Shown one piece after another: positions 30,090-35,489 of a stretch of DNA of 64,000 bases. The translations under genes and the position numbers were made by a program. The notes under the pieces are model-generated. The model did no database searches and was not told the origin of the DNA. It saw only the letters and a program-made list of their open reading frames with translations. Source of the stretch: Thiothrix subterranea (GTDB taxonomy: Bacteria > Pseudomonadota > Gammaproteobacteria > Thiotrichales > Thiotrichaceae); assembly GCF_016772315.1 (NCBI RefSeq), contig NZ_CP053482.1, positions 496,001 through 560,000 on the forward strand. Direction: 5' to 3'. Numbering within the stretch: the stretch's first letter is position 1; the number at the start of each line of letters is the position of its first letter.

Positions 30090-30526
30090 TGGAAAGCAGC
30101 TTTAATCGCATCGGTATAAAAACCGCGCCCGGCAAGAAATCGAGATTGCCGGGCGCGTTCCTTGTAATCAGCCGGGATTTCCCCGCCAAATTTCTTGATC
30201 CGTTGTTCACAGGCCAGATCGTGCCAGTCGACATCGGCTTCTGCCAATGCCTGAGCCGCCGTGGTGTCATCCACGCCATGCTCGCGTAATTCATAGTTAA
30301 TCCGCTGCGGACCACGCCCCCGCGAGATTGACGAACGGACAAAAGCAGCCGCGTAACGGGCATCATCCAGATAACCCAGCGACTGCAATTTATCCAAGAG
30401 CGCGTTCAAGCTGATAGTATCGCACTCGCAACGCTGACGCACTTTTTGCGCGAGTTCATGGCGAGAATGCTCACGCTGCGCCAACAAGCGCACCGCTACC
30501 GTTTCGCATTCCCGCCCATTAGTCAT
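30086..30526 (-). CDS. recX: Regulatory protein RecX
   Basis: 146 residues of three-helix repeats ([22 protein letters not shown], then [14 protein letters not shown] and [15 protein letters not shown]). RecX binds inside RecA filaments and limits their growth. It follows recA with a 1-base overlap (TAATG) and overlaps alaS by 4 bases, so it is probably expressed by coupling to recA. Confidence 0.94.
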
Positions 30527-31581
30527 TAAACAACGTCATCAAGACCGGCATCGCTGTCGGCTTCTTCGGTAACGGTGGCGGCAAAACCGGGCGCATTCAT
30601 GCAAGCTTCGCGGATAGCTTTTTCAATTTCAGCCGCCGCAGCCGGATGCTCTTTCAAATAATTGCGAGCATTATCCTTGCCTTGACCGATTTTTTCACCT
30701 TTATAGCTGTACCACGCGCCAGCTTTGCCGACCAGCCCTTGCTTGGAACCGAGGTCAACCAATTCGCCTTCGCGAGAAATGCCTTCGCCGTACAGAATTT
30801 CAAATTCGGCTTGTTTGAACGGTGGCGCGACTTTGTTCTTAACCACTTTGACGCGGGTTTCAGAGCCAGTAATTTCGTCACCCTTCTTAATCGCACCAAT
30901 GCGGCGAATATCGAGACGCACGGAAGCGTAGAATTTCAGCGCGTTACCGCCCGTAGTGGTTTCCGGGTTGCCGAACATCACGCCGATTTTCATCCGAATC
31001 TGGTTGATGAAAATCACCAAGGTATTGGAACGCTTGATATTACCGGTGAGTTTGCGCAGGGCTTGTGACATTAACCGTGCTTGCAAACCGACGTGAGAAT
31101 CACCCATATCGCCTTCGATTTCAGCCTTTGGCGTGAGCGCTGCAACCGAGTCGACCACCACCATATCCACTGCGTTGGAACGCACCAGCATGTCGGCAAT
31201 TTCCAACGCCTGCTCGCCGTTATCCGGTTGGGACACCAGCAAGTCATCGACGTTAACGCCGATTTTTTGCGCGTAAATCGGGTCAAGCGCGTGTTCCGCA
31301 TCAATGAACGCCGCTGTGCCGCCCATTTTTTGGCATTCGGCGATCACTTGCAGCGTCAGAGTGGTTTTACCGGAAGATTCCGGGCCGTAAATTTCGACAA
31401 CACGTCCTTTGGGCAGGCCGCCAATACCAAGGGCAATGTCCAGCCCTAATGAGCCAGTAGAAATCACGTCGATGTCGCGGGCAGCACTGGAGTCGCCCAT
31501 GCGCATCACAGTGCCTTTACCAAACTGACGTTCAATCTGGCCTAGGGCGGCGGCGAGGGCTTTCTTTTTGTTCTCGTCCAT
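30526..31581 (-). CDS. recA: Recombinase RecA
   Basis: 351 residues. Walker A is [10 protein letters not shown] and Walker B is VVVDSVAAL; the DNA-binding loops and [20 protein letters not shown] signature are complete. It promotes strand exchange and triggers LexA self-cleavage. A strong ribosome site (AAGGAG) lies before the ATG. I looked for a CTG-N10-CAG LexA box upstream and did not find a convincing one. Confidence 0.99.
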
Positions 31582-31690
31582 GCGGACACTCCTTAATAAA
31601 GGTAAATTCTGTGTGGGTGGTATGAAAGCGGGGATTATTTCATAACGGGTAGCAGCAAGCCAATGCCGAAAGATGAACGTCGATCATTTA

Positions 31691-31699
31691 TGGTATAAT
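31691..31699 (+). promoter_or_regulatory. Extended -10 element of the Uma2 gene promoter
   Basis: TGGTATAAT is a perfect extended -10 hexamer (TG, one base, TATAAT). It lies 54 bases before the Uma2 start, in the recA/Uma2 divergent region. No good -35 is seen 17 bases upstream, as often for extended -10 promoters. Confidence 0.5.
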
Positions 31700-31753
31700 C
31701 AGCGACTTGAAACAACCGCAAACCGCCTCAGTACTCGACCGGGAGAACAGCGT

Positions 31754-32389
31754 ATGTCACTTGCCTATCAATTAGACACACAACAACGTTACACCTATCA
31801 GGATTACCTGCGCTGGCCTGATGATGTGCGTTATGAATTGCTGGACGGTGAACCGGTGATGATGTCTGCGCCTAGCACGATGCATCAACGGGTTATTCGC
31901 GAACTGGTACGTCAAATCGGCAATTTTTTGTTGGGCAAATCCTGCGAAGTTTTTCCTGCACCGTTTGATGTTTGCTTCGCCGCTGCCGATGCGGCGGATG
32001 ACCAGATCAACAATGTGGTGCAACCTGACATCAGCGTGATTTGTGACGGCAACAAAATCCATGACAAAGGGTGCAAAGGTGCGCCCGATTGGATCATTGA
32101 AGTGCTGTCGCCTTCCACTGCATCCAGAGACCTGATCCACAAGCTGCGGCTGTACGAACGTTATGGGGTGCGGGAATATTGGGTGGTGCATCCGATAGAC
32201 CGAGTGGTGATGATGTGGCAATTGTCCGCCGATAGCGGGCGTTATGGCGCGGTGTTGATCGAGGAAACGCAGGGTATGCAAGCATCCGGGCTGTTTCCCG
32301 ATTTGGTGCTGGAATGGGATGTGCTGTTTCCACCACCGAAGCCGCTGGTTTATGTGAAAGAGCCACCGCCGGGGGGTTATTATTCATGA
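31754..32389 (+). CDS. Uma2 family (DUF820) putative restriction-like nuclease
   Basis: 211 residues. Uma2 proteins adopt a PD-(D/E)XK nuclease fold. Here the core is VVQPDISVICD and PDWIIEVLSPSTASRD, with the conserved Asp and Glu, then LRLYERYGVREYWVVHP. The family is expanded in cyanobacteria and some filamentous gammaproteobacteria and often sits in accessory regions; its biological role is not established. ATG 31754 has GGGAG eight bases upstream. The gene faces the TIR gene tail to tail, 47 bases apart. Confidence 0.87.
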   Translation: MSLAYQLDTQQRYTYQDYLRWPDDVRYELLDGEPVMMSAPSTMHQRVIRELVRQIGNFLLGKSCEVFPAPFDVCFAAADAADDQINNVVQPDISVICDGNKIHDKGCKGAPDWIIEVLSPSTASRDLIHKLRLYERYGVREYWVVHPIDRVVMMWQLSADSGRYGAVLIEETQGMQASGLFPDLVLEWDVLFPPPKPLVYVKEPPPGGYYS

Positions 32390-32436: not shown

Positions 32437-33504
32437 TTACTGACCGGAACGGACTAACCGCACATGATTGCCGTCGTAACGGTCGAACCAAAGGTCATTA
32501 CCATCGTAAAAGTTGACACCCCAAGCGTAGGAAGCATCTTTCGCTTTGGACGACCAGTGCAGCAACCCAAATGCAGGTGTATTCGGAAATACTTGCAAAT
32601 CAATCGTCGGGATTTGGTAATTGTGACCACAAGTCTTGTACCATGCCGTTGACTGCGGTATGCCGTTGCTGCAATACACAAGTGTACGTAACTCATCTTT
32701 AGTAGGCATCCGCCAATCGCTATAGTCTGCGAAGCTGACACCTGATTCAAACTCCGACATAGCATCATCCCACTTGTATTTGGCTGCTTCTCCAGTACTA
32801 CAATCCACACCACTTTGACCTTCAATGCATTGCTTCCACATCAACCCACTTTTAGTATCAGTTACCGTGCCGTCATTGTGAATGATGTAGTGGGATGAAG
32901 CTACAGTTTGGGGTATTGCTGTAGGAGCTTGCCCTGCAAGCGATTCTTTCTTCACAGGTTTGCCTTGTTGCATGGAAGAATCGCCAGCAAGGCTAGCTCC
33001 TACAGAATATTTCCAATAATACCCACCACAGCCAAGAACTGCCGCGAACAGGAATAGTGAGGGTAGCCACGGGAATTTTTTGGGTGGTGGCGAAGATAGC
33101 GGTTGAGACCCACGACCTAGCAGCCCATAAATTTGTGCTGCTAGTTCAATAAAAACTGGACTATCGCTTTTGCCATTCCAACGAGTGAAGTTACCCGCCT
33201 GCCGCATAGCGAAACCAAATGGCGGCTCAATATCATCAATCTTGATGGGCAACAACACGTTACGGCTTTTGCCATTACTGGCTTCTTCGAGCACCCATTC
33301 AGAATCTACAGAACCCTTCGACCATACCACCACGACACACCTGCTTTCACGAATGGCTTGGTCAATCTTGCGATGCCAATTCTCCCCTGTATGAATAGAT
33401 TGATGATCCCAAAACACTGACCAGCTCTGTTGCGCTAACGCTTGAAACAGCGGCTGCAAACGCTCACGGTCTTGGCTCGAGTAACTGAGAAAAATGTCGT
33501 GCAT
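32437..33504 (-). CDS. TIR domain - membrane helix - DUF1566 (Lcl C-terminal) protein
   Basis: 355 residues. Residues 1-130 form a TIR domain: HDIFLSYSSQDRE at the start, FWDHQSIHTGENW, and SEWVLEEA with Trp70 and Glu73/Glu74, close to the site of the catalytic Glu in TIR NADases. One membrane helix follows (about 145-162). Residues 167-195 are encoded by a REP-like inverted repeat. From about 205 there is a DUF1566/Lcl C-terminal domain (DTKSGLMWKQC, DYSDWRMPTKDELRTL), a C-type-lectin-like fold usually outside the cell. The topology suggests TIR inside and sensor domain outside; the function is inferred, perhaps in defence or signalling. Confidence 0.85.
   Translation of the reverse strand: MHDIFLSYSSQDRERLQPLFQALAQQSWSVFWDHQSIHTGENWHRKIDQAIRESRCVVVVWSKGSVDSEWVLEEASNGKSRNVLLPIKIDDIEPPFGFAMRQAGNFTRWNGKSDSPVFIELAAQIYGLLGRGSQPLSSPPPKKFPWLPSLFLFAAVLGCGGYYWKYSVGASLAGDSSMQQGKPVKKESLAGQAPTAIPQTVASSHYIIHNDGTVTDTKSGLMWKQCIEGQSGVDCSTGEAAKYKWDDAMSEFESGVSFADYSDWRMPTKDELRTLVYCSNGIPQSTAWYKTCGHNYQIPTIDLQVFPNTPAFGLLHWSSKAKDASYAWGVNFYDGNDLWFDRYDGNHVRLVRSGQ
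32920..33004. repeat. REP-like inverted repeat pair inside the TIR gene
   Basis: Arms at 32920-32950 and 32975-33004 are inverted copies (TGTAGGAGCT outer ends, GCGATTCTT inner ends) with about four mismatches. Each arm has its own palindrome (GCTTGC/GCAAGC and GCTAGC/GCTGGC), as in paired REP units. The whole 85-base unit is read through in frame, giving residues 167-195 of the protein (linker after the membrane helix). Confidence 0.8.
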
Positions 33505-33653
33505 ACTGATAACTGATAGAGAATCCCCGATGAACGGATAATAAACGATATGCGGCGGAATTTCTGTGAAATTGGCTCAGTCACCAGAAATGTTGCGTTG
33601 CAGCAAAAAAACTATCGACAATCGCCCCATAAACTAGCTATTGTGATACACCT

Positions 33654-35489
33654 ATGAATATCACCAGCTCAGACAAGTGGAATCCCTTACCTATGCAACA
33701 GCCAGTACCAACACCGACGCACACGGTTGACCCCGTGCAATTACAAACCAACATCACCCGCGCCATGCTCCTGTGGCAACGCTTTGTTGCTCGTATGATG
33801 AGCGATGCCGCCAGCAAGCAGGGCAAAGATGCCGGACAAGGCGATAACAGTTTCAACACCGCCATTGCCAAATGGGGCGTGAATTTATTCTTGCACCCCA
33901 CTGCCGTCATGCAAGCGAATATGGCACTGCTTACCAGCCAAACCAAACTGTGGCAACACAGCACCGCACGCGCACTAGGCTTCGGGAAATTGTCACCGGG
34001 CGTGCCTGCGATTACCGACAAGCGTTTCAAACACCCGGCATGGCAAGAACACCAATTCACCGAAGTGCTGCTCCAGTCTTACCTGAATATGTCAACCTAC
34101 TGGCGGACATTGGCGCAAACTGCTGGTGGCTTATCCGAACAGGATGCAAAAAAAGCCGAGTTCTTCATCAATAGCATGATTGATGCACTTTCGCCGAACA
34201 ATTACTCGCACACCAATCCACAAGTCTGGCAAACCATCCTCGAAACCAATGGTGAAAACCTCGTTAAAGGCATGGAAAACCTGCTGGATGACTTCCAAGA
34301 CGGTCAATTGCGTATCCGCATGACTGACATGAAAGCGTTTGAACTGGGGCGCGATATTGCCACCACGCCCGGCAAAGTCGTGTTCAAGAATGAACTGCTG
34401 GAACTGCTCCAATACACACCAACTACCGCCAAAGTCCGTCAACGTCCGGTCTTGATCGTACCGCCTTGGATCAACAAGTATTACATCCTCGACCTGCGCG
34501 AAAAGAACTCGTTCGTCAAATGGGCGGTGGAACAAGGCAACACCGTCTTTATGATTTCGTGGGTCAACCCTGACAGCCAGCACCGCGACTTAAACTTTGA
34601 AGACTACATGCAGGCAGCGATTGCGGCGATGGATGCGGTCGAAGCGGCGACTGGCGAACGTGACCTGAACCTGATCGGTTACTGCTTAGGCGGCACACTG
34701 ACCGCAGCGACCCTTGCGCACCTGAAAGCCAAAGGTGATGAGCGGGTAAAAAGTGCCACCTTCTTCACCACCTTGCTGGACTTTGCCGAACCCGGTGAAA
34801 TTGGCGTGTTCCTGAGCGAAGAACAGGTCGGTTCACTGGAAAAACGCATGGACAAAACCGGCTACCTCGATGGCAAAGACATGGGTACAGCTTTCAACAT
34901 GCTCCGCGCCAATGACCTAGTTTGGTCGTTCTTTGTGAACTTGTATTTGCTCGGCAATGACCCGATGCCTTTCGACCTGTTGTATTGGAACTCAGACAGC
35001 ACAAGAATGCCAGCGGCGATGCACAGCTACTACCTGCGCAATATGTACCTGAACAACTGCCTGAGCCAAGCGAATTGCCTCACCCTTTCCGGTACACCAA
35101 TTGATTTGCGCACCATTGATACTCCGGCTTACTTTGTTTCCACCCACGATGACCATATTGCGCCTTGGCGCAGTACGTATGCAGGCGCAAAACTGTTCGC
35201 AGGCCCGGTGCGCTTTGTGTTAGGGCAATCCGGTCACATTGCAGGCATTGTGAACCCTGCTGCCGCCAACAAATACGGTCACTGGGTCAATGATACGCAA
35301 GAAAAGCTAGATGACACGGCGGAAGATTGGCTGTTGGATGCCACCAAAGTGGATTTGTCTTGGTGGCATGACTGGAATCGCTGGGTAGCAACCTTCTCCA
35401 GCGAAGAAGTCGATGCGCGTATTCCCGGTGCAGGCAAACTGGAAGTACTGGGTGATGCACCCGGTACTTACGTGCGGCAGAAGGTCTAA
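33654..35489 (+). CDS. phaC: Poly(3-hydroxyalkanoate) synthase, class I
   Basis: 611 residues, the typical class I length. It polymerises hydroxyacyl-CoA to polyhydroxyalkanoate storage granules. The lipase-like box is GYCLGG with catalytic Cys344; the Asp is in STHDDHIAPW and the His in GQSGHIAG. The PPWINKYYILDL segment is highly conserved. No phaA or phaB is in the window. The start at ATG 33654 lacks a good ribosome site; a second ATG 13 codons later is possible. The 3' end overlaps pncC by 4 bases. Confidence 0.95.
   Translation: MNITSSDKWNPLPMQQPVPTPTHTVDPVQLQTNITRAMLLWQRFVARMMSDAASKQGKDAGQGDNSFNTAIAKWGVNLFLHPTAVMQANMALLTSQTKLWQHSTARALGFGKLSPGVPAITDKRFKHPAWQEHQFTEVLLQSYLNMSTYWRTLAQTAGGLSEQDAKKAEFFINSMIDALSPNNYSHTNPQVWQTILETNGENLVKGMENLLDDFQDGQLRIRMTDMKAFELGRDIATTPGKVVFKNELLELLQYTPTTAKVRQRPVLIVPPWINKYYILDLREKNSFVKWAVEQGNTVFMISWVNPDSQHRDLNFEDYMQAAIAAMDAVEAATGERDLNLIGYCLGGTLTAATLAHLKAKGDERVKSATFFTTLLDFAEPGEIGVFLSEEQVGSLEKRMDKTGYLDGKDMGTAFNMLRANDLVWSFFVNLYLLGNDPMPFDLLYWNSDSTRMPAAMHSYYLRNMYLNNCLSQANCLTLSGTPIDLRTIDTPAYFVSTHDDHIAPWRSTYAGAKLFAGPVRFVLGQSGHIAGIVNPAAANKYGHWVNDTQEKLDDTAEDWLLDATKVDLSWWHDWNRWVATFSSEEVDARIPGAGKLEVLGDAPGTYVRQKV

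Follow-up and report, generated by a model that had tools for sequence, protein, structure and literature searches.

The window, a 64,000-nucleotide stretch of DNA from the sulfur bacterium Thiothrix subterranea, carries two tail-to-tail genes between its core flanks, recA (positions 30526-31581, minus strand; named from the original prediction and from sequence) and a phaC-like gene (33654-35489, plus strand; named from the original prediction), both flanks delimited by their reading frames and by synteny. One of the two, hereafter the window gene, is a single intact reading frame (32437-33504, minus strand) that starts with ATG and encodes 355 amino acids; the other belongs to the Uma2 family (31673-32389, plus strand; Pfam 3.5e-34, PADLOC 1.9e-51). 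We compared the recA-phaC site across 16 genomes of the genus, the window's own (G000) included, nine of which were readable there. In five of the nine (G002, G004, G005, G014 and G015) recA and phaC lie 0.2-0.3 kb apart, and because the two adjoin directly in these genomes, the window locus is an accessory insertion, in agreement with the original prediction, which had placed the gene in an accessory patch between recA and phaC. The two genes are 2.1 kb apart in G000 and G013, where they enclose the Uma2 and TIR-Lcl genes, and 3.3 kb apart in G001, where they enclose a helicase-like gene (identified by eye). In G006, a different TIR receptor adjoins phaC, recA being outside the stretch read. 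The recA, alaS and phaC genes of G004 (L204, contig C5) are found on a 446-kb contig that is publicly recorded as a plasmid.

Across the G000 and G013 copies, the window gene is 99.81% identical (2 of 1068 bases differ, leaving the protein unchanged), a value that tops those of recA (97.9%), phaC (97.1%) and Uma2 (95.1%) and thus suggests that the gene was swept or moved recently. The Uma2 neighbour had been anticipated by the original prediction, but it lies tail to tail with the window gene, so the two do not form one operon, an arrangement that their convergence rules out. By PADLOC, this Uma2 gene matches the candidate family PDC-S03. Among the matches listed, 11 of the 29 family TIR loci have a Uma2 gene no more than 5 kb away, as against 0.92 expected from the density of such genes; the G000 and G013 loci are a single event. 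A PADLOC scan of 98 neighbouring reading frames from 14 TIR loci returned mainly candidate families among the matches listed (25 of 45 families): the Uma2-type PDC-S03 in eight frames, PDC-S01 in four, and the others as single matches. No STAND, MoxR or vWA NTPase was found in the window protein by Pfam or among its direct neighbours Uma2, recA and phaC, and no ThsA-like gene was recognised among the latter.

A TIR half, a palindromic linker and a lectin-fold half

The window protein consists of a TIR_2 domain (aa 4-109), a weak membrane segment (~aa 144-164) and an Lcl_C/DUF1566 domain (aa 212-352; 32449-32871, minus strand). That TIR and DUF1566 share one polypeptide was the core of the original prediction; Pfam indeed returned TIR_2 (4.6e-22) and Lcl_C (3.3e-27) above their curated cut-offs, and only TIR and Lcl_C families were matched at E <= 1. 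Within the single 4.08-Mb genome G000, there are 14 TIR_2 and 13 Lcl_C matches.

An AlphaFold2 model of the TIR half (aa 1-138; mean pLDDT 86), whose domain of ~130 residues is encoded at 33115-33504 on the minus strand, found its best PDB match by Foldseek in AbTir with bound 3AD (7uxu, E 9e-6). When Foldseek matches were re-ranked by VIA-align, the Hydra TRR-2 TIR came first (4w8g; Z 17.0, rmsd 2.2, 123 residues aligned), and AbTir scored Z 13.8 (rmsd 2.4, 123 aligned). In a sequence alignment, W70 and E74 of the window protein correspond to the WxxxE motif of AbTir (WTNYE), with E74 at the position of the catalytic Glu of AbTir. The original prediction had pointed to Trp70 and Glu73/74 as lying near the NADase position. 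Trp70 and Glu74 held up: E74 is invariant in all 26 family TIRs aligned (27 were found, L087 being left out), and position 70 is Trp in 24 and Tyr in two. Glu73 did not, as this position varies. E74 is thus a candidate catalytic residue of the window TIR. The domain also matches ThsB_TIR (Pfam 3.7e-06), and the ThsB profiles of PADLOC matched weakly.

The sensor half was likewise modelled (aa 196-355; AlphaFold2, mean pLDDT 85). Its best match was the C-terminal domain (CTD) of Legionella Lcl (8q4e; E 3e-4, Z 12.2, rmsd 3.7, 117 aligned). Further down the list come two targets of diversity-generating retroelements (DGRs), a variable protein of Treponema (2y3c) with Z 8.1 (rmsd 4.7, 134 aligned) and Mtd of a phage (1yu3) with Z 8.0 (rmsd 3.2, 114 aligned); these scores are middling, of a level common to many C-type lectins. 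Structure prediction of both halves, proposed alongside the original prediction, thus agreed with known TIR structures for the one half and with the Lcl domain of Legionella for the other.

Between the halves, hydropathy predicts a membrane helix at about aa 144-164 (33013-33075, minus strand), just after the proline-rich PPPKKFPWLP. With a Kyte-Doolittle score of 1.39 for aa 144-162 this stretch is weak; relatives mostly score 1.4-2.5 at the same place, and L069, L078 and L077 fell under the threshold of 1.3. Weak hydrophobicity counts against a receptor reading, as do the Glu within the hydrophobic stretch of L069 (G004), a relative 72% identical to the window protein, and the absence of a detected helix in L077. 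In the sibling L072:9145-10044 (G013), whose TIR domain is 82% identical to that of the window protein, a TIR domain, one helix and a CxxCH cytochrome c follow each other in a single chain. Attachment of c-type haem occurs outside the cytoplasm; the same TIR-helix layout in this sibling therefore argues for a C-terminus outside the cytoplasm and lends indirect support to the helix and outward-facing Lcl sensor of the original prediction. Lcl_C is found, too, on L079 and L080, two proteins with a signal-like N-terminal stretch. The domain need not face outward, since five TIR-like Lcl_C proteins (L084, L086, L090, L093 and L094; TIR likeness by BLAST in three, by eye in two) have no detected helix. 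The linkers of these helix-less proteins resemble a second translated dispersed repeat (GEGE...GVGVREN), that of L094 in part.

The linker between helix and sensor (32919-33005, minus strand) is an inverted pair of GTAG-type REP palindromes, with 87% complementary arms at 32919-32948 and 32976-33005, which translate in frame as VGASLAGDSS...KESLAGQAPT. Its DNA fold has a z score of -5.7, and none of 200 shuffles was equally stable. Scanning the 16 genus genomes with one REP consensus (at most two mismatches, such that older copies escape) gave 94 copies in 12 genomes as compared to none for a reversed-pattern control. Thirteen of the 94, which are not independent events, lie within TIR-TM genes, including three of the four copies of G000; one of these 13 precedes the helix. 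Among the 92 copies other than those of the window, 58 are in reading frames of at least 200 aa, where 55 read VGAS-AGDS or ESLAGQAPT, and the remainder are in shorter frames or in none. By sequence, the hosts include apparent housekeeping genes, namely feoB, mutL, priA, gcvP and ackA (L136, L140, L145, L149, L164, L166 and L181, from several genomes). Intragenic GTAG REPs, often in opposed pairs, are translated in frame, flexible linkers tolerating them, according to the part of PMC3733652 drawn on here. Between G000 and G004, the linker has a dS of 0.11 as against 1.04 for the TIR and 2.31 for the Lcl half, which would fit a palindrome that is conserved or restored at the DNA level. RAYT (Y1_Tnp) had no match in G000 and a partial match within a REP cluster of G012.

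One TIR half, many C-termini, and different receptors at fixed loci

Across the genus, the TIR half recurs joined to Lcl, FGE-sulfatase, Sel1-like, DUF4384-like and cytochrome c C-termini. Run on representatives, Pfam identified FGE-sulfatase in L076 and cytochrome c with CxxCH in L072, and returned matches under the cut-off for Sel1 (L202) and DUF4384 (L085); FGE in further members was assigned by BLAST, and PEGA and other Sel1-like ends by inspection. By Pfam, the Lcl half is in turn attached to a caspase whose start is signal-like (L085) and, in L095, to a kinase that has a helix. Three genomes hold divergent pairs of a TIR-TM-DUF4384-like and a caspase-Lcl_C gene (L085:8470-10966, L087 and L088; by Pfam in L085 only). 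At the DNA level, a leader upstream of the window gene (33505-33565, minus strand) matches sibling TIR genes elsewhere in the genus: nine of ten comparisons place the start of homology between -46 and -66 relative to the ATG, and that with G007 places it at the ATG itself; the first block of homology stops at aa 110-143, past the TIR domain, in nine and at aa 232 for the Lcl gene of G004.

Such a range of C-termini bears on what the family senses. The Sel1-like, DUF4384 and cytochrome c ends are not obvious antigen sensors, and a general stress receptor, in which the C-terminus would sense an abiotic envelope or redox state and the TIR domain would make an NAD-derived second messenger, fits them equally well. 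The existence of a TIR-TM-cytochrome c sibling speaks for such a receptor, as does the recurrence of Sel1-like C-termini in the family (by sequence, one representative being under the Pfam cut-off). For a housekeeping sensor of this kind, however, an accessory location, receptors that differ between related species at one site and a DGR-hypermutated sibling (see below) would be unusual, and we consider it distinctly unlikely as an account of the window protein.

The full-length TIR-TM-Lcl arrangement is rare, being present in three of the 16 genus genomes (G000, G013 and G004), and some relatives are broken: one in G006 has an in-frame stop between coil and helix, and the Lcl frame of L081 is interrupted. 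Rarity and decay would be expected if the window gene were a drifting hybrid, i.e. a recombination leftover whose orphan fusion has no selected receptor function. Against this, the reading frame is intact, the TIR domain has a dN of 0.06 as against a dS of 1.04 between G000 and G004, and another genus has TIR-TM-Lcl with a TIR domain of the other main clade, which together make a drifting hybrid very improbable. This last protein, L237, came from a sample of 369 genomes within the class (E <= 1e-30; at most five candidates scored per genome in listed genomes with more), which gave at least one further TIR-TM-Lcl, from another genus of the same family, as well as the Lcl match L236. Thirteen plasmid records matched the window protein, none of them over 80% of it.

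In a tree of 29 TIR domains, L237 falls into the other main group (split 100/99), on a very long branch; the TIR-TM-Lcl architecture thus likely arose twice, a likelihood short of proof given that long branch. The window TIR groups with TIR domains whose proteins end in cytochrome c, PEGA-FGE or FGE (92/75) and away from that of the other Lcl protein, L069, and so sensor type does not track TIR ancestry.

At three loci, the third being the recA-phaC site described above, genomes of the genus carry different receptors. At locus 1, the cytochrome c receptor of G013 (L072) and a coil-Sel1 receptor of G000 (L097) lie between shared flanks, one of which is 97.2% identical over 8,582 bp and the other 93-95% identical; G005 (FGE) matches G013 at 77-84% on both flanks, and G004 (PEGA-FGE) and G008 (Sel1) each match on one side. 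The cytochrome c gene of G013 and the PEGA-FGE gene of G004 share 85% identity between -299 and aa 195, after which their sequences are unrelated, which argues that the sensor was replaced behind a retained TIR half. Between different loci, the FGE halves of G005 and G006 are 91% and their TIR halves 70% identical. At locus 2, the TIR-TM-Lcl gene L069 of G004 occupies the site that in L099 (G000) and L096 (G009) holds TIR-TM-Sel1 and a DGR; given this different locus, L069 is ruled out as a syntenic orthologue of the window gene. That REPs drive every exchange was not borne out, as several exchanged members, among them G013 cytochrome c and G005 FGE, have no copy of the REP pattern at the joint.

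Closely related species that differ in their receptor at the same locus could also speak for kin or self recognition, whereby a polymorphic lectin would read the surface molecules of neighbours, and cells that do not match would be held back or killed through the TIR domain. Thiothrix forms filaments, and allorecognition typically involves polymorphic loci. Yet no ligand- or immunity-like gene is recognisable among the direct neighbours Uma2, recA and phaC, and use against invaders would account at least equally well for the DGR targets and the Uma2 neighbours; kin recognition therefore appears rather unlikely to us.

Relation of the lectin end to diversity-generating retroelements

Genome G000 has three RVT_1 matches, one of which, at 3.87 Mb, contains the motifs IGSLTSQ and YMDD, which mark DGR reverse transcriptases (RTs). 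Along with the RT, this DGR comprises a template, an HRDC protein and an FGE target; the start called for the target overlaps the 3' end of a TIR-TM-Sel1 gene (L202). Its template and target differ at template adenines in 12 of 13 cases. In G011, a TIR-coil-TM-FGE gene is itself the DGR target (L076:9087-12596, with VR, HRDC, RT and TR), with 16 of 17 changes at template adenines. Relatives of the RT were found at E <= 1e-30 in seven of the 16 genomes (G000, G004, G008, G009, G010, G011 and G012); they are not always beside a TIR-TM gene, some residing in MoxR-like loci as judged from sequence. In G009, the HRDC gene of the DGR carries a REP pair where its G000 counterpart has a gap, and a shortened DGR RT (L096:6184-6789) continues directly into sequence resembling a template, which looks like the result of a deletion by recombination.

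A second G000 template (L201:9238-9336) is located at 1.481 Mb between two Lcl genes, from which it differs at adenines in 18 of 21 and 17 of 20 cases, with no RVT_1 match within 1.1 Mb. The 3' end of the window gene (32439-32535, minus strand) is homologous to this template: in a gapless comparison, differences fall at 15 of 30 adenines and at 12 of the 67 remaining positions (p 0.0016 by Fisher's test, without correction, for one Lcl end among 14 compared), so that 15 of its 27 changes from the Lcl-type template are at A. An Lcl end unrelated to DGRs is ruled out by this concentration of differences at adenines. Among 11 control Lcl ends away from the template, ten had odds ratios above 1 and six had p < 0.01, the window gene being a seventh (alignments were limited to 29 bases for L088 and 35 for L090; L081, L095, L101 and L203 left out). 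The adenine bias is thus common to most Lcl ends compared and may in part reflect surface positions varying under selection. We regard the 3' end of the window gene as related to a DGR variable region from which it has diverged.

The window gene is ruled out as an active DGR target: neither an RT nor a template was found beside it, and its copies are nearly identical. None of the three RVT_1 matches of G000 is near 0.53 Mb, the window locus (L105) has no adenine-biased repeat pair, and a search of G013 with the DGR RT gave no match at E <= 1e-15.

Proposed function and comparison with known systems

The window protein is probably a conflict receptor of the membrane that pairs a TIR domain with a lectin sensor open to replacement. 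Its TIR domain, with W70 and E74, would reside in the cytoplasm, one helix would cross the inner membrane, and Lcl_C would face the periplasm or beyond. There, Lcl_C, perhaps as a trimer by analogy with Legionella Lcl, may bind a ligand such as a phage or competitor surface glycan, a protein or an envelope fragment. Ligand binding would gather TIR domains, leading to NAD+ cleavage or an NAD-derived signal, and the affected cell would stop, which would benefit the filament. What is replaced would be the sensor, through other C-termini on the same TIR half, other receptors per site and DGR hypermutation of some lectin ends. The link of the window gene to defence is circumstantial, made up of the Uma2 enrichment, the presence of family members in or beside DGR loci, and receptors differing at fixed sites. 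More tentatively, Thiothrix could possess a repertoire of immune receptors with a Toll-like layout whose sensors are renewed both by exchange at fixed loci, helped by REPs in some cases, and by DGR hypermutation of lectin tips; the window gene might then represent a "frozen" specificity that left its DGR and spread.

TIR effectors and DGR-diversified lectins are already known separately in bacterial conflict systems. If the receptor reading is true, a single-chain TIR-lectin family whose members vary from species to species at the same sites would give bacteria an equivalent of polymorphic receptor families. How bacteria might perceive threats beyond the cytoplasm, and whether mobile palindromes contribute to the making of receptors, would thereby become testable. 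In the literature, preprints being outside its scope, we found neither a TIR domain together with DUF1566 nor Thiothrix together with a diversity-generating retroelement.

The nearest described systems are the DGR-diversified putative antigen sensors of multicellular bacteria (PMC10907252, PNAS 2024), in which, as far as the portion of that report used here goes, conflict effectors including TIR are combined with a C-terminal C-type-lectin fold; one target joins CHAT and TIR, and transmembrane segments in some would place the lectin in the periplasm. Those systems are built on STAND NTPases or MoxR/vWA, whereas in Thiothrix TIR, helix and lectin form one chain without an NTPase, and the window gene, unlike the antigen sensors of that work, has no adjacent DGR. 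DUF1566 and Thiothrix are not mentioned in its main text. Cyanobacterial DGR variable proteins similarly carry effectors, TIR-like ones included, on a C-terminal CLec, some with transmembrane or secretion signals (PMC7517822, in the part considered); these are mostly kinases and mostly predicted to be cytosolic, and that part of the source yielded no TIR-helix-lectin receptor exchanged at fixed loci.

On the sensor side, the CTD of Legionella Lcl is a DUF1566 domain and a trimeric glycosaminoglycan binder (PMC11162425, in the sections consulted). Its fold is shared by the window sensor model; Legionella Lcl itself, in contrast to the window protein, is a surface collagen-like adhesin without TIR. 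In-frame translation inside genes, as in the window linker, is common to Rickettsia palindromic elements and GTAG REPs (PMC3733652 and PMC10969869, both in excerpt). Unlike the intragenic REPs in the excerpt of PMC3733652, whose main text does not mention Thiothrix, the window REP forms the sensor linker of a receptor family.

On the effector side, the window protein shares the TIR fold and the candidate catalytic Glu with ThsB of Thoeris and other bacterial TIR effectors and, unlike them, has a predicted helix and a putative sensor of its own. The top two VIA-align rows for the TIR model are TIR domains of Hydra Toll-related receptors. Animal Toll-like receptors have a leucine-rich-repeat ectodomain, signal through adaptors and run in a chain order opposite to that of the window protein. 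What the two have in common is a likeness of layout only, with TIR inside, a single helix and, as predicted for the window protein, a recognition domain outside.
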